From assembly GCF_900102745.1 (NCBI RefSeq), contig NZ_FMZF01000004.1:62001-126000 (forward strand): a DNA stretch of 64,000 nt, given 5' to 3'. The position numbers were made by a program, and so were the translations under genes. Numbering within the stretch: the stretch's first letter is position 1; every line of letters begins with the position of its first letter. The DNA is from Geodermatophilus telluris. Lineage in GTDB: Bacteria > Actinomycetota > Actinomycetes > Mycobacteriales > Geodermatophilaceae. The notes under the pieces were generated by a model. It did no database searches. It was given only the letters and a program-made list of their open reading frames with translations, and was not told the DNA's origin. This document shows positions 3,686-38,888 of this stretch, in pieces.

Positions 3686-4347
3686 CGCCGCAGAGTCTCC
3701 CGCAGCCGTCCGCCGCACCCGCAGCGTCCCCGGGGGCGGATCGGTCGAGAGCACGAGCCGTCCCCATCGGCCAGGCCGACCCGGACCCGCGGACGGATGT
3801 CCCCGTCGAGTCGCCCCCCTCATCGTGACGTCCATGGCGATCGACCACCGAGGGCTCGTCACTGCGGGGACGGGCCCCTCGGGCAGCCGGCGCCCTGTAC
3901 CTGCTCGTGGTCGTCCTGGGCGGCGCCGCCCAGCTGGCCGCCCGCGCCGGCACCCGCCTGTACCGGGCACCGCACCTCCTGCCGGACAGCACATGGACGC
4001 CCAGCCGGCCACGTTCTAGGGCAGCCCGGTCGGCGACATCGCGATGGCCGCGCTGTTCGTCACCGTCGGGGTCGCCCTGTACCTGCTGTTCCGACACATC
4101 CAGCGCGACGCAAGGTCAGGTCGGCCACCCACCTCACCAGCAGCGTCTCCACCACGTGAATAGAGGGAGGGCCCGGCACAGCGTCATCATCCTGATGCAC
4201 CTGCATCCACGGACGAGGCCGTCCCCGATAGGGACAGCGGCCGTGTGACTCCCATCCGCGCCAGGACGGTTGAACGTTGCACTGTCACCAACGGCGCACC
4301 CTTCCGCATGGCGAAGACCCCACGCGATCACGAAGATGGTGCGAGCC
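3686..4347. other. Gene-poor stretch between regulator and orphan membrane gene
   Basis: No intact gene is supported in these ~660 nt. Open frames here have no ribosome-binding sites, and most are Arg/Pro-rich readings typical of a wrong frame. The only coding-like signal is the hydrophobic remnant listed separately at 3880-4163. Base composition falls below the flanks towards the right end. No terminator-like hairpin stands out. Confidence 0.6.
3880..4163 (+). pseudogene. Possible remnant of a membrane-protein gene, frameshifted and interrupted
   Basis: Two membrane-helix-like stretches lie in different frames. From 3889 the frame gives GALYLLVVVLGGAAQLAARA and then TRLYRAPHLLPD. From 3993 another frame gives MDAQPATF, an in-frame TAG at 4017, then PVGDIAMAALFVTVGVALYL, LFRHIQRDA and a stop at 4161. 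Neither half has a ribosome-binding site. The simplest reading is a small membrane-protein gene broken by a frameshift and a nonsense codon. Alternatively the second half from the internal ATG at 4044 is a ~39-residue one-helix protein, or both matches are chance. Confidence 0.35.
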
Positions 4348-5358
4348 TCAGGCCGTCCTCGTCACAGCGTCGACCTCCTCCAACACGGAGGCGGCACGCC
4401 TGTCAATGACTCCGGTGAACAGTTGTTGGGCGTATCCCAATACGAGTGCCCATGCGATTATCTCGCTGCTGGTGTCCAGCACTTCGATACCTGGGACCAG
4501 ACCTGCGTTCACCAGGATGATGCCGAACAGAGCAATCAGAGCGCCGGTGGCCGTCTTCAACAGCACGAGAGCCAGCGAGAGGTTGTACGGATCGCCACTG
4601 CCTCTGAGGTTCTTGATCGCTATGGCAGTCGACAGAGCCGCGCCGAGAACCCCCAGGAACTCGAGGAAGACGATGTTGATCGGATCCGCGAGCTGAGCTG
4701 TGACTTCGTCCACGTCCCCGAATGACCCGTCAGGTATGGAGGAAGTCAAGGGACTGGTTGCGGTCGGGCAGGCGACCTGCACGCGGTCGGCCACGGTGCT
4801 GGTGAAGCAGACCGGGAAGAGGCTGGGATATGCAGAGCCCAGCACCCCGGCGATCGTTGCCAGGATCACGAGGGAGCCCGTGGTCGCCAGGATGATGCGT
4901 CGAAAACTCTCCAACCGAAGACGATTGCGTCGATCCTCCTCGTTGACTGCTACGGCGCTTGCGACGATCACCTGCCTGTCGTCCTCGGTGTACTCGACGG
5001 ATTGCGTGACGGTGGCGAGCTGCTCGAGCCTGAGGAGTCGCAGGTCATCGGGAGCCAGTGCCTTGCGAGCCTGCATGACGAGGTTGGGAAGCGCTCCGTG
5101 GAGAAAAGAGGTGGGCGCCAGCCGCAGAAGGTCCGTTTGCGCGGAGTCCAGATGAGCGAGGATCACCGTGAGGCTTGACGCGGACGGCGTCTTCCCCAGT
5201 TGCTCCTCCGCGGCGTCCAGGTTGGACGAGATGACCTCGATGAGCTCCTGTGGCTCCGAGATCTGAGTTTGTGTCTGCACCCAGCCCTGAAGGTGCCGAA
5301 GCCGCTTGGTGAGCGCCGTCAACTCTACTTGCCAATCACTTCGGCGCCGGCGTCGCAT
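4348..5358 (-). CDS. Orphan four-helix membrane protein with helical N-terminus, lower GC
   Basis: A 336-residue protein of unrecognised function. The ATG at 5358 is supported by GGGGAG 7 nt upstream. Residues 1-140 are charged and helix-rich ([26 protein letters not shown]). Four hydrophobic segments follow: [20 protein letters not shown], a second at [20 protein letters not shown], a third at [20 protein letters not shown], and the last around [20 protein letters not shown]. Between the first two is a ~50-residue loop with two cysteines. Codon choice is much less GC-biased than in neighbours, which suggests transfer. There is no operon partner. Confidence 0.72.
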
Positions 5359-5809: not shown

Positions 5810-6856
5810 GTGCCCACGACCGTCAAGGCGTACGCCGCCACGTCCCCCACGGCGCCGTTGACGCCGACGACGGTCGAGCTCCGGGACGTCGGCCCGCACG
5901 ACGTGCGCATCGACGTCCGCTACTGCGGCATCTGCCACTCCGACATCCACACCGCCCGCGGCGAGTGGGGGGCCACCGCCTACCCCGTCGTGCTGGGCCA
6001 CGAGATCACCGGGGTCGTCGCCGAGGTGGGCCCCGAGGTGACCCGGTTCCGGGTCGGCGACCGCGTCGGCGTCGGCTGCCTGGTCGACTCCTGCCGCGAG
6101 TGCCGGTACTGCCGGCGCGGGGACGAGCAGTTCTGCACCGAGGGCTACGTCGAGACCTACTCGAGCACCGGCCGGGACGGCCGGCCGACGCAGGGCGGCT
6201 ACGCCGAGGGCATCGTGGTCACCGAGGACTTCGTCCTGCGCATCCCCGACGGCCTCGCGCTCGACGTCGCCGCGCCGCTGCTGTGCGCGGGCGTCACCGC
6301 CTGGTCCCCGCTGCGCCACTGGGGCGCCGGTCCCGGCACGCGGGTCGCCGTCGTCGGCCTCGGCGGGCTGGGCCACGTGGCCGTCCAGCTGGGCTCCGCC
6401 CTGGGGGCCGAGGTCACCGTGCTGTCGCAGTCGCTGAAGAAGCAGGAGGACGGCCTGCGGCTGGGCGCGACCCACTACGCCGCCACCAGCGCCCCGGACA
6501 CCTTCGCCCGGCTGGCGGCCTCCTTCGACCTCGTCCTCAACACGGTCAGCGCGTCGGTCGACGTCGACGCCCTGCTGTCCCTGCTGGCGGTGGACGGCAC
6601 GCTGGTCAACCTCGGCATCCCCGAGCACCCGCAGTCGCTGGACGTCCTGTCGCTGCTCATGCGGCGCGTCTCCTACGCCGCCTCGAACATCGGCGGCATC
6701 CGGGAGACCCAGGAGGTGCTCGACTTCTGCGCCGGACACGGCATCGCCGCGCTGGTCGAGACGATCGCGGCGGACCGGCTCGACGAGGCCTTCGACCGGG
6801 TCGTGGCCTCCGACGTGCGCTACCGCTTCGTGCTCGACACGGCCACGCTCGCCTGA
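5810..6856 (+). CDS. Zinc-dependent NAD(P) alcohol dehydrogenase (YahK/cinnamyl-ADH type)
   Basis: A 348-residue cytoplasmic medium-chain dehydrogenase that oxidises alcohols or, more often in this subfamily, reduces aldehydes with NADPH. The GTG start has GGAGGAG just upstream. Catalytic zinc ligands are visible in YCGICHSD and [12 protein letters not shown], with the third at LLCAGVTAW. The structural zinc cysteines lie in [15 protein letters not shown]. The Rossmann motif [13 protein letters not shown] and the C-terminal YRFVLD are typical. Physiological substrate is unknown and no pathway neighbour helps. Confidence 0.93.
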
Positions 6857-33199: not shown

Positions 33200-33213
33200 T
33201 AGCGTCCGCGCGG
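33200..33213 (+). promoter_or_regulatory. -10 box of a leaderless promoter for the sigma-RsbT gene
   Basis: TAGCGT (33200-33205) precedes GTG 33213 by 7 nt with no Shine-Dalgarno. The same hexamer serves other leaderless genes here, so the operon appears to be read by the housekeeping sigma factor. Confidence 0.5.
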
Positions 33214-34292
33214 TGGAGGCGACGGGGTGCGTCGGGCGGTCGGCGGCCGGTGCCTCCGACGCCGTGGCCGCGCTGATCCCGATGGTCCGCCGGATCGTGG
33301 GGGCCCGCGTCGCCGACGTCACCACCGCCGAGGACCTCGTGCAGGAGACCCTGGCCCGCGTGCTCGCCGCCTCCGGCCGGGTCGAGCCGGGCATGCTCGA
33401 GCCCTACGCCATCGCCACCGCGCGCAACGTGGTGGCGACCGCCTGGCGCGAGGAGGACCGGCAGCGGCGCAACCGGCACCGGGTGGTCGACCTCACCGCG
33501 CCGGACCTCCCCGAGGGCGGGCTGCTCGCCGAGGAGGAGCGCTCCGCCGTCGCCGCGGCGCTGGCCCGGCTCTCCGAGCGGGACCGCGAGGCGCTGGTCG
33601 CGCACGAGGTGTCCGGCCGGGACACCCGCTCGCTGGCCACCGACCTCGGCTCGACCGCCGGCGCCGTCGCCGCGCAGCTGCACCGCGCCCGGGCCCGGCT
33701 GCGGGTGGAGTACCTGCTCGCCCGGGACCGCACCGAGCCCCCGACCGACCGCTGCCGCCCGGTGCTCTTCGCCCTCTCCAGCGGTGACCGCCGCCGCCAG
33801 CGCGAGGTCGACGCCGGGCGGCACCTGCTCGAGTGCGACGTCTGCGCCGCGCTCAGCCAGCCGCTGCTGGAGCGGGCGCCGCAGCGGGACGACGAGGTGC
33901 GCATCCCGATCGACGGCGACGCCGACGTGGTCGCGGCCCGGCAGGCCGCGCGGGAGCTGGCCGGCCGGCTCGGCTGCTTCTCCCCCACCGACCTGACGCT
34001 GATCGCCACCGCCGTGTCCGAGGTGACCCGCAACATCGTCAAGTTCGCGGGGTCCGGCGAGGTGGTGGTGGAGGTCCTCGAGCAGCCCCGCCGGGGCGTG
34101 CAGGTGACCGCCCGGGACGCCGGCCCCGGCATCCCCGACGTCGAGCGGGCGCTGCAGGACGGCTACAGCACCTACGCCGGCCTGGGCCTGGGGCTGCCCG
34201 GCGCCCGGCGGTTGATGGACGAGTTCGCGATCGCCTCCGAGGTGGGGCGGGGCACGACGGTGACGATGACGAGGTGGTGTGCGGACCGATGA
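33213..34292 (+). CDS. Fusion: ECF sigma factor, zinc anti-sigma motif and RsbT kinase
   Basis: A 359-residue protein with three modules. Residues ~15-90 are sigma region 2 (TTAEDLVQETLARVLA), ~112-168 sigma region 4 (SERDREALVAHEVSGRDTRS, then AAQLHRARARLRVEYL). Cys181, His204, Cys208 and Cys211 (HLLECDVC) form the Cx22Hx3CxxC pattern of zinc-binding anti-sigma domains. About 228-359 is a full RsbT-type GHKL kinase: AVSEVTRNIVKFAG (Asn274), RDAGPGIPDV and GLGLGLPGARRLMDEF, very close to Bacillus RsbT. The next three genes encode RsbT's partners, all with 4-nt overlaps. Inferred role: a sigma factor held and freed by a stressosome through its own RsbT domain. Confidence 0.92.
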   Translation: MEATGCVGRSAAGASDAVAALIPMVRRIVGARVADVTTAEDLVQETLARVLAASGRVEPGMLEPYAIATARNVVATAWREEDRQRRNRHRVVDLTAPDLPEGGLLAEEERSAVAAALARLSERDREALVAHEVSGRDTRSLATDLGSTAGAVAAQLHRARARLRVEYLLARDRTEPPTDRCRPVLFALSSGDRRRQREVDAGRHLLECDVCAALSQPLLERAPQRDDEVRIPIDGDADVVAARQAARELAGRLGCFSPTDLTLIATAVSEVTRNIVKFAGSGEVVVEVLEQPRRGVQVTARDAGPGIPDVERALQDGYSTYAGLGLGLPGARRLMDEFAIASEVGRGTTVTMTRWCADR

Positions 34293-35185
34293 GCAGCAGC
34301 CAGGGACCGGCGACGACGACGGCCGGCTTCGACAGCCCCGGTGAGGACCAGCTGCTGCCGCAGCTGGTCGCGCACCTGCGCGAGCACCGCGCCCGGCTGC
34401 GGCACGAGTGGTCCGAGCGCATCCAGCAGGCGGGCCTGCTGCACGCGATGACCCCGCAGGAGATGGCGGCCGAGACGACGTCGGTCTACGACAACTACGT
34501 CGAGGTGCTCGAGACGGGCAGCGTCGAGGCGCTGCAGCGCTACGCCCGCGACCTCTCCGAGCGGATCATCCCGCGCGGGGTGGAGACCCACGAGGTTGTC
34601 GGCATCGTGCTGCTCCTGCGCGACGTGCTGGCGCGCTCGCTGTTCGAGAAGTACCAGCGGGACTTCGGCCTGCTCAACCGCGTGCTCGACGCCTACGAGC
34701 CGGCGGCCAACCGGATCGCCAACACCGTCGCGGTGAGCTTCGTCGAGGAGCGCGAGCGGGTCATCCGGCAGCAGCAGGACGCGCTGCGCGAGCTGTCCAC
34801 CCCGGTGCTGCCGGTGCGCGAGCGGCTGCTCATCCTGCCGATCATCGGGGTGCTGGACAGCGAGCGGGCCCGCCAGCTCACCGAGCAGCTGCTCACCGGC
34901 ATCCGCACGCACCGCGCCCGGGTGGTCGTCGTCGACATCACCGGCGTCCCCGAGGTCGACGAGTCGGTGGCCAACCACCTCGTGCAGACCGTGGACGCCT
35001 CCCGCCTCATGGGCGCCAGCGTCATCATCACGGGGCTGTCGCCGAAGATCGCCCAGACGCTGGTGACCATCGGCGTGGACCTGAGCAAGATGGACACCAT
35101 CGGCGACCTGCAGGGCGGCCTCGAGGAGGCCGAGCGCCTCCTCGGCTACACGACGAGCAGGGACGACGGGACGGGTGGGCCGTGA
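34289..35185 (+). CDS. rsbR: RsbR-type stressosome scaffold protein
   Basis: A 298-residue protein starting at ATG 34289 inside the preceding stop (ATGA). Residues ~20-160 are a helical, globin-like sensor domain with SVYDNYVEVLETG and EVVGIVLLLRDVLARSLFEK. The linker RELSTPVLPVRERLLILPII leads to a STAS domain (~172-285). Of the two RsbT target threonines in Bacillus RsbRA, the second is kept as Thr257 (KIAQTLVTIG). The first appears to be Glu225 (PEVDESVANH), a negative charge in place of phosphate. It would assemble with RsbS into the stressosome core. Confidence 0.92.
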   Translation: MSSSQGPATTTAGFDSPGEDQLLPQLVAHLREHRARLRHEWSERIQQAGLLHAMTPQEMAAETTSVYDNYVEVLETGSVEALQRYARDLSERIIPRGVETHEVVGIVLLLRDVLARSLFEKYQRDFGLLNRVLDAYEPAANRIANTVAVSFVEERERVIRQQQDALRELSTPVLPVRERLLILPIIGVLDSERARQLTEQLLTGIRTHRARVVVVDITGVPEVDESVANHLVQTVDASRLMGASVIITGLSPKIAQTLVTIGVDLSKMDTIGDLQGGLEEAERLLGYTTSRDDGTGGP

Positions 35186-35586
35186 CCGGACCCCGGCTGG
35201 TCTCCATCCTGCGGCAGGGGCCCTACCTGATCGCCTCGATCCACACCGCGCTCGACGACTCGCAGATGACCGCCTTCCAACACGACCTGGTCGACCGCAT
35301 CGGCCGCGACCGCGCGCGCGGGGTGGTCATCGACGTCGCCGCGCTCGACGTGCTGGACTCCTTCGCCACCCGGACGCTGCGCACGATCGGCGAGGTCGCC
35401 CGGCTGCGCGGCGCGGTGACCGTGGTGGTGGGCATCCAGCCGGAGGTGGCCTTCACGATGGTGGCGCTGGGCATGGACACCGGGTCGCTGCACACCGCGC
35501 TCGACCTGGAGGAGGGCCTGGCCCTCCTCGACCGGGCGGTCGGTCCCCGGCGCCCGGTGACGGCCCTGCGGGGCGGTGCGGCGTGA
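35182..35586 (+). CDS. rsbS: RsbS-type STAS stressosome protein
   Basis: A 134-residue single STAS domain. GTG 35182 overlaps the rsbR stop by four bases. The RsbT phosphorylation site of Bacillus RsbS (IDSF) is present as LDSF with Ser ~60; GIQPEVAFTMVALGM and TALDLEEGLALLD also match RsbS. It should bind the RsbT module when unphosphorylated and release it once phosphorylated. The C-terminus is ~12 residues longer than in Bacillus. Confidence 0.93.
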   Translation: MTGPRLVSILRQGPYLIASIHTALDDSQMTAFQHDLVDRIGRDRARGVVIDVAALDVLDSFATRTLRTIGEVARLRGAVTVVVGIQPEVAFTMVALGMDTGSLHTALDLEEGLALLDRAVGPRRPVTALRGGAA

Positions 35587-35873
35587 CCGGCGCGGAGGGG
35601 TTCGCCCGCGACTACCGCGTCGGGTTCCTGTCCCACCTCGCCCGCCGCAGCGAGGCCTCGCTGAACCGCGGGTACGAGCTCGGCCGGGCCGCGGTCACCG
35701 GGGGCCTCGGGATCCTCGAGGTCGCGCGCGTGCACCACGAGGTGCTGCTCGACGTGCTGCGCGGCACCCCCGCCGGCGAGCTGGCCGACGTCGCCGGGGC
35801 GGCGTCGGAGTTCCTCAGCGAGGTGCTGGCCACCTCGGACATGGCCCAGCGGACGCTCCTGCACCCGCGCTGA
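35583..35873 (+). CDS. Stand-alone RsbU N-terminal (RsbT-binding) domain
   Basis: A 96-residue helical protein; GTG 35583 overlaps the rsbS stop by four bases. The pattern YRVGFLSHLARRSEASLNRG, then ARVHHEVLLDVL and a final ASEFLSEVLATSDMAQR, follows the first ~85 residues of Bacillus RsbU, the part that binds RsbT. The PP2C phosphatase domain is absent, and the gene ends cleanly before a hairpin, so this is not a window-edge truncation. It could compete with RsbS for the fused RsbT module. Confidence 0.8.
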   Translation: MTGAEGFARDYRVGFLSHLARRSEASLNRGYELGRAAVTGGLGILEVARVHHEVLLDVLRGTPAGELADVAGAASEFLSEVLATSDMAQRTLLHPR

Positions 35874-36004: not shown

Positions 36005-36307
36005 TCAGTTCTGCGTGATCGTCACCGGCTCCATGTTGCTCTCGCAGACGGTGCTGTCGGTGCCGCTGCGGTCGACCGCGCGCCCGAGGACGGCCACGGG
36101 TCCGACGTTCACCCCGCAGATCTGGGCCACGACCTGGGCGGCGACGCCGATGTTGACGTCCTCGAGGATCGTGACGTCACCGACGGCGACGTTCACCAGG
36201 CCGTCCTGGACGGCGACCGGCTGGGCGCTCGCCGTGCCGGCGACGCCGGTGACGAGCGCGGTGGTCGCGGCCAGACAGAAGGCCGAGCGCTTGAGCGTGC
36301 TGGTCAT
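36005..36307 (-). CDS. Small secreted protein of unknown function
   Basis: A 100-residue precursor; ATG 36307 follows GGAGGAG. A classical signal peptide (KRSAFCLAATTALVTGVAGT, then ASAQP) would be cut after ASA. The mature part is Val-rich and strand-forming (GLVNVAVGDVTILEDVNIGV, then AAQVVAQICGVNVGP), with two cysteines likely disulphide-bonded. The alternating hydrophobic pattern recalls small surface-active or chaplin/rodlin-like actinobacterial proteins, but I cannot assign a family. Confidence 0.75.
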   Translation of the reverse strand: MTSTLKRSAFCLAATTALVTGVAGTASAQPVAVQDGLVNVAVGDVTILEDVNIGVAAQVVAQICGVNVGPVAVLGRAVDRSGTDSTVCESNMEPVTITQN

Positions 36308-36387
36308 GGGGGCTCCTCCGTGTGTGGCCCGGTGCGGCGCCGTCGCCGCGGGGGCCGTGCACGGGTGAAGACCCCTCCGGCCGCCCG

Positions 36388-36448
36388 GCATGACGCGAGG
36401 GTCCGGGCGGGGAGCGGCCCGGAGGAGGTGACCGATCCCGCGTCATGC
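36388..36448. promoter_or_regulatory. Perfect 10-bp inverted repeat between divergent genes
   Basis: GCATGACGCG (36388-36397) and CGCGTCATGC (36439-36448) are exact reverse complements 41 nt apart. The heptamer AGGGTCC also occurs beside each arm. Placed between the divergent secreted-protein and hydrolase genes, it could be a paired operator. Confidence 0.4.
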
Positions 36449-36516: not shown

Positions 36517-37278
36517 GTGCCCTGGTCTCCCGACCGCCGCCTGCTCGCCGCGACCGAACCGGTGCGCGCGGCCGCCAGCGCGGGCGCGCTCGCCGTCACC
36601 TGGCCGCTGTTGCGCGGCGCCCCGCGCGGGGAACGGCACGCCGTCCTCGTGCTGCCGGGGCTGCTCGCCTCCGACGCCTCCACGCTCACCCTGCGGCGCT
36701 GGCTGCGCGGGCTGGGCTACCCGGTGGTGGGGTGGGAGCTCGGCCGCAACCGGGGGCCGACCAGGGAGGTCACCGACGAGCTGCCGCGGCTGGTGCGGCG
36801 GCTGGCCGAGCAGCACGGCGGGCCGGTGAGCATCGTCGGGCAGAGCCTGGGCGGGATCTACGCGCGGCGGCTGGCGCTGCGCGTCCCGCGGCAGGTGCGC
36901 CAGGTGGTGAGCCTCGGGTCCCCCTTCGGCCTGGCCGGCGGGCCCGGCGACGGCAGCCCCGGCGCCCGCGCCTACGCCCGCCACCGGCCGCTGCACGCCG
37001 TCCCGCCCCGCGGCGGCCTCGGCGGCCCGCTGCCGGTGCCGAGCACCGCGGTCTGGTCGCGGTGGGACGGCGTCGTCGACTGGCGGGCCTGCCGGCAGGC
37101 GACCGGGCCGACCGCGGAGAACGTCGGCGTCCTGGCCAGCCACCTCGGCATGGGCCACGACCCGGCGGTGCTGTGGCTGGTGGCCGACCGCCTCGCGCAG
37201 AGCCGGGAGGGCTGGCGGCCCTTCACCCCGCCCGCCCGGCTCCGCCCGCTCTACACCGCCGAGCCCGACGACGGCTGA
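36517..37278 (+). CDS. Alpha/beta-hydrolase, lipase-like
   Basis: A 253-residue cytoplasmic hydrolase. GTG 36517 follows GGAGGAAG. The oxyanion segment VLVLPGLLASDAST, the nucleophile elbow VSIVGQSLGGIYARRLA (Ser in GQSLG), VSLGSPFGLAGG and the late HLGMGHDPAVLWLVADRL (catalytic His) are in the usual order. STAVWSRWDGVVDW supplies the likely acid Asp. Similar proteins are annotated as PGAP1-like or triacylglycerol-lipase-like; substrate unknown. The 3' end overlaps the next gene by 28 bp, tail to tail. Confidence 0.88.
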   Translation: MPWSPDRRLLAATEPVRAAASAGALAVTWPLLRGAPRGERHAVLVLPGLLASDASTLTLRRWLRGLGYPVVGWELGRNRGPTREVTDELPRLVRRLAEQHGGPVSIVGQSLGGIYARRLALRVPRQVRQVVSLGSPFGLAGGPGDGSPGARAYARHRPLHAVPPRGGLGGPLPVPSTAVWSRWDGVVDWRACRQATGPTAENVGVLASHLGMGHDPAVLWLVADRLAQSREGWRPFTPPARLRPLYTAEPDDG

Positions 37279-38858
37279 CGGCGCCGCGCCCGCAGCACGG
37301 CGTCGGCCACGTGCACGTGGTCGCCGTGGCCGTGCGCCTCGTGCACGCGGGCCTGTCGCGGACGGCTCTCGGCCACCTGGACCTCCCACTCGGCGGGCTC
37401 GAGGACGGCGGCCAGCTGCGCGCCGGTGGCGTACCACTCGGGCAGGCCCGGTCGCTGGACGCCGTGGGAGACGTCGCTGCCGTCGTGCATCGTCACCAGC
37501 AGCGTGCCGCCGGGGGTGACCGCCGAGGCCAGCGTCCGCAGCACGTCGTCGCGGGTGGCGGGCGGGAAGTGCAGGAACGACGCCGTCACCAGGTCCCAGC
37601 GCTCCTCGCCCGGCTGCCACGAGGAGACGTCGGCCTTGCGGGTGTCGAGCGTCAGCCCGGCCGCCCCGGCCGCGGCGGCGGCGCGGTCGAGCGCCGTGCG
37701 GGAGAGGTCCAGCGCGGTGACCGCCCACCCGCGGCGGGCCAGCCACACGGCGTCCCCGCCCTCGCCGGCCCCGGCGTCCAGCGCGCGGCCCGGGGGCAGG
37801 TCGGCGGCCTCGGTGGCCAGCACGTCGTTGACCCGGCCGCTCCAGACGCCGTCCCCGTGCGAGCGGTAGCGCTCCTCCCACCACTGCTCGCCGTACTCCG
37901 GGTCGCTCTGCGCGCGGAGCACCTCGACCGCGGCCCGGGTGTCCTCGGCGACCAGGTCGGCGTTGACCGCGGCACCGGCCAGGAGGCCGGCGGCCGCCGC
38001 GCCGATGACCTGCGCACCCGGGTCGGCGACGTTGCCCGCCGCCCAGACGCCGGGCACCGCGGTGGCGCCGCGCGGGTCGACCGGCACGTGCGAGCCGACG
38101 ACCGCATCGCCCATCCGGAACGGCTCGGGCTCCAGCCCGAGACCGGCGAGCACGGCCGAGCGGGCGGTGAACCGCGGGGCGACGACGACCGCGGCGCGGG
38201 GCACGACCTCCCCGCCCGCCAGCCGGACGCCGGTCAGCCGGCCGCCGTCGGTCTCCAGGGCCGCCACCTCGCCGCGCACCACCCGGACCCCGCGGGCCGC
38301 GAGCGCCTCGGCGGTGGCGTCGTCGAGCTCCGGCGCGGTGTGCAGGAAGAAGACGACGTCGGCGCTCCACTGCCGCCACAGCTGGGCCTGGTGCAGCGAC
38401 ATCGGTCCGGTGGCCAGCACGCCGACCGGCTGGTCGCGCACCTCCCAGCCGTGGCAGTACGGGCAGTGCAGGACGTCGGTGCCCCACAGCTCCCGCACCC
38501 CCGGGATCTCCGGCAGCTCGTCGGTCAGGCCGGTGGTGACCAGCAGCCGACGCGCGCCCAGCACCCGGCCGCCGGCCAGCTCGACGGTGAACGCGCCGGC
38601 CGTCCCGCCGACCGCGGTCACCGTGTCCTCGACCAGCACGCCGCCGTAGCCGGCCACCTCGGCCCGCCCCGCGGCGAGCAGCTCCCCGGGCGGCGTGCCG
38701 TCGCGGCCCAGGTAGTTGTGCATCTCGTGCGCGGGCGCGTTCCGCGGCGTGCCGTCGTCCACCACGGCCACCGAGCGGCGCGCCCGTCCCAGGGCGAGGG
38801 CGCCGGAAAGCCCGGCCGCTCCCCCACCGACGACCACCACGTCGTACGTCTCGTCCAT
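37251..38858 (-). CDS. Fusion of thioredoxin-reductase-like flavoprotein and SAM methyltransferase
   Basis: A 535-residue two-domain protein. Residues ~1-300 are a class II pyridine-nucleotide oxidoreductase: FAD motif DVVVVGGGAAGLSGALALGR, the redox pair in HCPYCHGWEV and GVWAAGNVADPG. About 325-500 is a class I methyltransferase with motif I ALDAGAGEGGDAVWLARRGW, VTALDLSRTALDRA and LVTASFLHFPP. ATG 38858 is chosen over GTG 38867 by homology to the usual N-terminus. It is divergent from a XRE-cupin regulator across an operator-like palindrome. Disulphide or thiol detoxification is a plausible role. Confidence 0.88.
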   Translation of the reverse strand: MDETYDVVVVGGGAAGLSGALALGRARRSVAVVDDGTPRNAPAHEMHNYLGRDGTPPGELLAAGRAEVAGYGGVLVEDTVTAVGGTAGAFTVELAGGRVLGARRLLVTTGLTDELPEIPGVRELWGTDVLHCPYCHGWEVRDQPVGVLATGPMSLHQAQLWRQWSADVVFFLHTAPELDDATAEALAARGVRVVRGEVAALETDGGRLTGVRLAGGEVVPRAAVVVAPRFTARSAVLAGLGLEPEPFRMGDAVVGSHVPVDPRGATAVPGVWAAGNVADPGAQVIGAAAAGLLAGAAVNADLVAEDTRAAVEVLRAQSDPEYGEQWWEERYRSHGDGVWSGRVNDVLATEAADLPPGRALDAGAGEGGDAVWLARRGWAVTALDLSRTALDRAAAAAGAAGLTLDTRKADVSSWQPGEERWDLVTASFLHFPPATRDDVLRTLASAVTPGGTLLVTMHDGSDVSHGVQRPGLPEWYATGAQLAAVLEPAEWEVQVAESRPRQARVHEAHGHGDHVHVADAVLRARRRQPSSGSAV

Positions 38859-38888
38859 GCCCGACACGGTGCACCCGCCCGTGCCGAC

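Follow-up and report, generated by a model that had tools for sequence, protein, structure and literature searches.

A sigma factor fused to an RsbT kinase in a conserved stressosome operon of Geodermatophilus telluris, and a candidate promoter beside it

How might a stressosome act on transcription when its kinase, RsbT, is itself part of a sigma factor? The question is raised by an operon of Geodermatophilus telluris within the 64,000-nucleotide (nt) stretch analyzed here (NZ_FMZF01000004.1, positions 62,001-126,000 of the forward strand; hereafter the window). A preliminary description had claimed a single 359-residue protein holding sigma2 and sigma4 regions, a Cx22Hx3CxxC motif and a complete RsbT domain, with genes for RsbR, RsbS and the N-terminal domain of RsbU (RsbU_N) following at 4-nt overlaps. 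Pfam matches and motif positions confirmed the first of these claims and open reading frame (ORF) coordinates the second, each of the junctions fusion/RsbR, RsbR/RsbS and RsbS/RsbU_N overlapping by exactly 4 nt. That description did not include a candidate promoter and an adjoining gene for a secreted protein, both of which are reported here. We propose, with a probability of roughly two in three, that the fusion is stored inactive on the co-encoded RsbR-RsbS stressosome and, when released by stress, starts transcription itself.

Both halves of the protein are well supported by profile matches. Sigma70_r2, Sigma70_r4_2 and HATPase_c all scored above their curated Pfam cut-offs (46.9 bits against 26.4 for HATPase_c), TIGR02937 matched at 68.3 bits (cut-off 42.9), and at Pfam cut-offs sigma2 and sigma4 are present without sigma3, as expected of an extracytoplasmic function (ECF) sigma factor. 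The RsbT domain has the GHKL/HATPase fold, the N-box asparagine and DxGPG. The preliminary description had staked its proposal on homologues that retain sigma and kinase parts alike, and they do: 84/84 homologues matched both Sigma70_r2 and Sigma70_r4_2 (E up to 1), and the RsbT ATP-site residues E270, N274, D302, G304 and G306 showed zero variation in 227/227 rows of an alignment of the window's protein with 226 proteins of 331-399 amino acids (aa), from 228 listed. R243 and R247, which align with RsbT R19 and R23 (B. subtilis numbering), were invariant in 38/38 fusion loci; four of these loci are second records of genomes already counted, and the loci share ancestry, so residue counts across them are not independent. 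PMC12143880 places R19 and R23 in the RsbU interface.

The fusion recurs well beyond the window. Within the window's family, 13 of 57 genomes have it in full and one more has a copy broken by a contig end. Wider scans, over overlapping genome sets and with five or six candidates scored per genome, found the full-length fusion in 17/298 genomes of the order, 4/296 of the phylum and 4/394 of the class. In total, 24 of the sampled actinobacterial genomes, with ten family codes (f1, f2, f3, f4, f9, f10, f20, f61, f90 and f118), have a full fusion. A scan of named species genomes, from which the best 80 of 315 loci were kept, contributed 17 full fusions, four of them from genomes already in the 21-locus set described below. 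Named carriers are Geodermatophilus, Blastococcus, Modestobacter, a Geodermatophilaceae strain, Phycicoccus, Knoellia and Humibacillus, together with Tetrasphaera, Nocardioidaceae and Propionibacteriaceae bins. A Euzebyaceae bin was among the protein matches, and there are many further homologues in protein and contig collections.

The genes that follow the fusion are conserved with it. The order fusion-RsbR-RsbS-short RsbU_N was found in 21/21 loci with eight family codes and, as far as the contigs reach, in 17/17 named loci; RsbU_N was present in 16 of these, the contig of the remaining locus (L102) ending before it. The rsbR-rsbS neighbours, whose conservation the preliminary description had proposed to test, are thus conserved. 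A gene-calling artefact or frame fusion was rejected on the basis of full-length matches without internal stops in ten family codes. Because such stop-free homologues exist and the same three genes come next in 21/21 loci, the fusion is not a chance event.

Across the compared genomes the module is all-or-none. RsbU_N occurs exactly once in each of 22/22 fusion genomes and in 0/8 fusion-free relatives, and RsbS, scored at E 1e-10, in 22/22 fusion genomes versus 0/19 fusion-free relatives of the family. By these counts, therefore, neither a further stressosome nor an RsbU phosphatase bearing this N-domain is seen there. No stand-alone RsbT was seen in the window's genome, where all 51 candidates were scored; the next-best match to the RsbT part (E 5.1e-4) lies inside a 946-residue ORF (L005). 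The loss of the RsbU phosphatase agrees with the shortened cascade envisaged in the preliminary description.

RsbS matched RsbS of PDB entry 6qcm at 84.6 bits, and residues 29-284 of RsbR matched RsbR of entry 9o4h at 131.8 bits (both Listeria proteins); the RsbR N-domain remained below the RsbRD_N cut-off (20.3 of 24.3). Ser60 of RsbS is present as previously stated and was retained in 38/38 fusion loci and in 43/43 loci chosen for comparison that have a stand-alone RsbT (32 of 60 named loci plus 11 from other genomes). Thr257 of RsbR was likewise retained in 38/38 fusion loci. The first RsbR phospho-site is different: glutamate occupies it in 31/38 fusion loci versus 1/41 scorable loci of the 43 with stand-alone RsbT, in which serine is commonest (27 of 41). 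Among solved RsbR entries this residue is threonine in 9o3o, 9o4r and 9o5l, alanine in 9o3z and glutamate in 9o4h, and the natural glutamate may be read as an evolutionary version of a phosphomimetic.

RsbU_N keeps E24 in 37/37 scorable fusion loci. No PPM phosphatase follows it: at most 40 aa lie beyond the matched domain in 21/21 loci. Where RsbU_N was found in loci with a stand-alone RsbT, a longer protein mostly begins with it. An Acidobacteria locus (L144) has a stand-alone RsbT and two RsbU_N matches (4003-5355 and 6072-6383), one of them within a short open frame, roughly 100 residues long.

The second line of evidence concerns the output. By reading the sequences upstream of two families of secreted-protein genes we detected a motif, CGTCAT-N18-TCTTCA, that adjoins the operon in 20/34 non-redundant fusion loci, compared with a mean of 0.07 and at most 1 in first-order shuffles, and in 0/60 other loci of the same RsbT scan. 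When spacers of 8 to 30 were tried, 20 loci matched at 18, one at 26 and none elsewhere. Among 15 loci that played no part in reading the motif, 7 carry it. Six of the 20 motif loci are named loci outside Geodermatophilaceae (L102, L103, L105, L107, L108 and L109). As judged by eye and by match, secreted-type genes lie behind 14 of the 20 sites and PRC-barrel-like stress genes behind those of L102 and L105, and the gene in L103 is of unclear kind. The motif is likely to be a promoter read by the sigma part of the fusion.

In the window, the ATG of the secreted-protein gene lies 58 nt after the motif. This gene is single-copy in 8/33 family genomes, all of them fusion genomes (8/14) and all with the gene beside the operon, and it occurs in 0/19 fusion-free relatives. 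The second secreted family has one copy in 8/19 fusion genomes, beside the operon in seven. Mutual exclusion of the two families, suggested by the presence of both in 0/11 genomes searched, was rejected after both were found in G511. The window's secreted protein may resemble chaplins; it has no Pfam match. One genome, G023, has the motif at a distance from the operon, where it precedes a gene similar to that behind the operon-side motif of G021 (L194, L189). By eye, all that this gene has in common with the window's secreted protein is a short GLVNV-type stretch. The idea that the operon regulates itself through the motif was rejected, as the sequence upstream of the operon has a TAnnnT box instead. 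In 15/21 loci an in-frame start is preceded by a TAnnnT box at a distance of 6-7 nt, versus 0.06 expected at random positions in the same loci, which suggests that the window's box is likely the leaderless start of the operon.

Table 1. Positions of the operon, its protein domains and the neighbouring candidate target in the window (position 1 is its first letter)
Feature	Position	Strand	Remarks
TAGCGT, -10-like TAnnnT box	33200..33205	+	7 nt before GTG start of fusion
Sigma-RsbT fusion protein	33213..34292	+	359 aa, GTG start
Sigma region 2, residues 18-83	33264..33461	+	PF04542, 39.3 bits (cut-off 24)
Sigma region 4, residues 112-163	33546..33701	+	PF08281, 38.9 bits (cut-off 25.7)
C181-x22-H204-x3-C208-x2-C211 segment	33753..33845	+	resembles a zinc anti-sigma domain in its motif alone
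RsbT kinase domain, residues 228-357	33894..34283	+	HATPase_c
RsbR, N-domain and STAS; E225, T257	34289..35185	+	
RsbR E225, natural Glu at phospho-Thr position	34961-34963	+	
RsbS, single STAS with Ser60	35182..35586	+	
Bare RsbU N-terminal domain, 96 aa, without linker or phosphatase	35583..35873	+	PF08673, 34.3 bits (cut-off 25.5)
Proposed main target, a small protein of 100 aa whose N-terminus by eye looks like a signal peptide	36005..36307	-	
CGTCAT-N18-TCTTCA, proposed promoter of sigma-RsbT protein	36366..36395	-	comparative genomics

Two further features lie nearby. Ten-base inverted copies lie at 36388-36397 (CGCGTCATGC) and 36439-36448 (GCATGACGCG); the CGCGTCATGC copy overlaps the proposed -35 part of the motif, and several loci show similar CATGACG copies. 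On the minus strand at 37251-38867, a 538-residue ORF appears by eye to join a thioredoxin-reductase-like oxidoreductase to an S-adenosylmethionine (SAM) methyltransferase, and six relatives have an ORF of this cluster near the operon.

Taken together, we infer binding of the fusion to RsbS and RsbR, phosphorylation, release, a role for RsbU_N and use of the promoter in the following way. The operon would probably be transcribed as a leaderless mRNA from the TAnnnT box, so that its four proteins are made together. In the unstressed cell, docking of the RsbT domain on RsbS/RsbR would hold the sigma part off RNA polymerase. Under stress, the RsbT domain would phosphorylate RsbS Ser60 and RsbR Thr257, and the fusion would leave the stressosome. 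The freed RsbT domain would then be taken by a dimer of the bare RsbU_N and so kept off the stressosome. The promoters opened by the sigma part would be those of the CGTCAT-N18-TCTTCA type, of which the window has one, ahead of the secreted-protein gene. Read most simply, this would be a partner switch: the fusion moves back and forth between the stressosome and RsbU_N, and its sigma part, once free, acts on few promoters. The sign of control and the parts played by RsbU_N and by the C-H-C-C segment are likewise inferred. A more specific version, for which we consider the odds even, is an inverted stressosome: the sensor complex would hold the sigma factor directly on its surface through the fused RsbT and under stress pass it to the bare RsbU_N dimer, thereby serving a near-private regulon without phosphatase, anti-sigma factor or anti-anti-sigma factor.

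In the window's close relatives this regulon would amount to the single secreted-protein promoter. In the window's genome, an extended form of the motif has three matches at up to 2 mismatches; the neighbour site is the sole exact match and the only one with fewer than 2 mismatches. A wider regulon was not found: when four close genomes were searched in relaxed form, the neighbour site was the only one common to all four, and one 2-mismatch site was common to G055 and G004.

Several observations weigh against the proposed switch. The exact motif was not found in 14/34 fusion loci, nor in three fusion loci fetched later (L227, the contig-cut L228, and L230), and in 3/20 motif loci (L094, L095 and L104) there is no convincing target gene behind it. 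A CGTCAY form of the motif had 31 matches across 41 genomes versus 14 for a reversed control in the same genomes; an isolated match at a distance from the operon is therefore mostly background. This form stands beside the operon in 12/22 fusion genomes, all with family code f1 (12/14 there) and 0/8 of the others; G037 has no match to it. The structural model of the fusion has a predicted TM score (pTM) of 0.52 and therefore gives no firm placing of the sigma and RsbT parts relative to each other. Finally, RsbU_N is not known to us to have a function when no effector is linked to it, and the motif could be owned by another regulator. L230, for its part, has CGTCAT-N18-TTATCA, at the right spacing, before a gene of the window's secreted family.

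One rival would have the motif belong to another regulator or sigma factor of the neighbouring secreted genes, with the fusion controlling something else. It would account for the loci that lack the exact motif, and the inverted copies, read on the minus strand as 36448-36439 and 36397-36388, could be an operator. We nevertheless regard it as unlikely, since the motif tracks the fusion and not one gene family: it precedes different secreted families and, by eye, stress-protein-like genes in L102 and L105, it keeps one fixed spacing, and in G023 it sits away from the operon. The 19 fusion-free relatives have four scattered CGTCAY matches, none before such genes.

A second rival concerns the kinase half. 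The best PDB matches of the fusion's RsbT domain are the anti-sigma kinases SpoIIAB and RsbW, which are GHKL proteins switched by STAS partners. This would suit an arrangement in which the RsbT domain inhibits the sigma part in cis and RsbS/RsbR pulls it off; docking on the stressosome would then turn the sigma factor on rather than off. Such an arrangement seems improbable to us. Sequence comparison indicates that the nearest relatives of the domain are mostly RsbT of rsbR-rsbS operons, RsbS adjoining the stand-alone matches in 51/60 named loci, and the retained RsbU_N argues for an RsbT-type use. Moreover, SpoIIAB and RsbW bind group-3 sigma factors, not ECF sigma factors, and RsbT is not known to bind sigma factors.

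In a tree of 87 RsbT rows, a branch with an SH-aLRT of 92, which falls short of the starred level, separates the RsbT domains of 37 fusions from the rest; a single origin of these domains is thus likely. By eye, ten loci (L057-L062, L064 and L110-L112) have sigma and C-H-C-C relatives without RsbT, which in its place carry a hydrophobic segment and then another domain bearing an EGFW-type motif; these point to a swap of the C-terminal module. CGTCAT-N18-TCTTCA was not found in the fetched flanks of ten sigma relatives without RsbT.

In a third rival, the C-H-C-C segment common to both groups would be the main brake, a zinc anti-sigma domain fused to its sigma factor as in ECF48/52/53, with RsbT only docking the protein on the stressosome or reporting stress to the brake. 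C181, H204, C208 and C211 are invariant in 227/227 rows, and the segment has a ZAS-type Hx3Cx2C motif with an upstream cysteine at x22 spacing, the usual upstream spacing being 24-26. Fusions of sigma factor, zinc finger and membrane segment are described in PMC8999054. We doubt this explanation on several grounds. The zf-HC2 profile matched neither the window's protein nor five excised segments and was absent among 25 of 35 families listed for 84 members, and a fold search with the segment modelled alone listed no good PDB match, a result that excludes nothing. Redox gating through this zinc-type motif, as put forward in the preliminary description, is a conjecture, and the segment is named neither by Pfam nor by fold searches. 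Only about 60 residues separate sigma4 from RsbT, and no transmembrane segment, a mark of ECF48/52/53, follows the C-H-C-C segment, RsbT coming directly next.

Returning to storage of the fusion on the stressosome, all of its parts come from known families and the wiring appears to be new, as far as we could establish. No paper on a sigma-RsbT fusion turned up among the titles and abstract openings listed by the literature searches, although a mention in the ECF classification (10.1093/nar/gkaa1229) is possible, and no paper on a stressosome was found for Geodermatophil-. If the proposal is true, the path from stressosome to promoter is shorter than any we found described. In Geodermatophilus and its soil-dwelling relatives, stress would then turn genes on in one step, most likely beginning with the adjoining gene for a small secreted protein. 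RsbT would then be shown as a swappable control module for sigma factors, and a role for the bare RsbU_N domain would be there to be found.

The closest known counterpart is the RsbRST-RsbUVW-sigma-B system of Bacillus and Listeria, which has in common with this operon RsbR, RsbS, RsbT, the RsbU N-domain and the key residues checked. Here, in contrast, RsbT is fused to the sigma factor, RsbU is without linker and phosphatase, and the window's genome yielded neither a second RsbU_N nor an RsbT standing alone. PMC12143880 describes stressosome outputs (PPM phosphatase, histidine kinase and GGDEF) that have their effector on the RsbU_N side. In our operon it is RsbT that bears the effector, and release of the sigma factor would therefore report the release of RsbT directly. 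The mycobacterial RsbR-RsbS-RsbT-RsbUVW system likewise has actinobacterial stressosome genes, but with a separate RsbT gene and a route to sigma-F via RsbUVW, according to PMC8115616. EcfG-NepR-PhyR of alphaproteobacteria also places an ECF sigma factor under partner exchange in the general stress response; there, according to PMC8999054, a response regulator mimics the sigma factor, whereas here the sigma factor itself bears the switching kinase domain. ECF48/52/53 and SCO4117 have the same sigma2-sigma4 layout followed by a Cys/His segment, and the sigma-zinc fusions described in PMC8999054 and PMC5826349 end in membrane parts. The RsbT-free relatives found here resemble ECF48/52/53 in that their C-H-C-C segment is followed by a hydrophobic segment, with another domain besides, whereas in the fusion RsbT replaces the membrane part, and control would be by binding of cytoplasmic partners and not by proteolysis.

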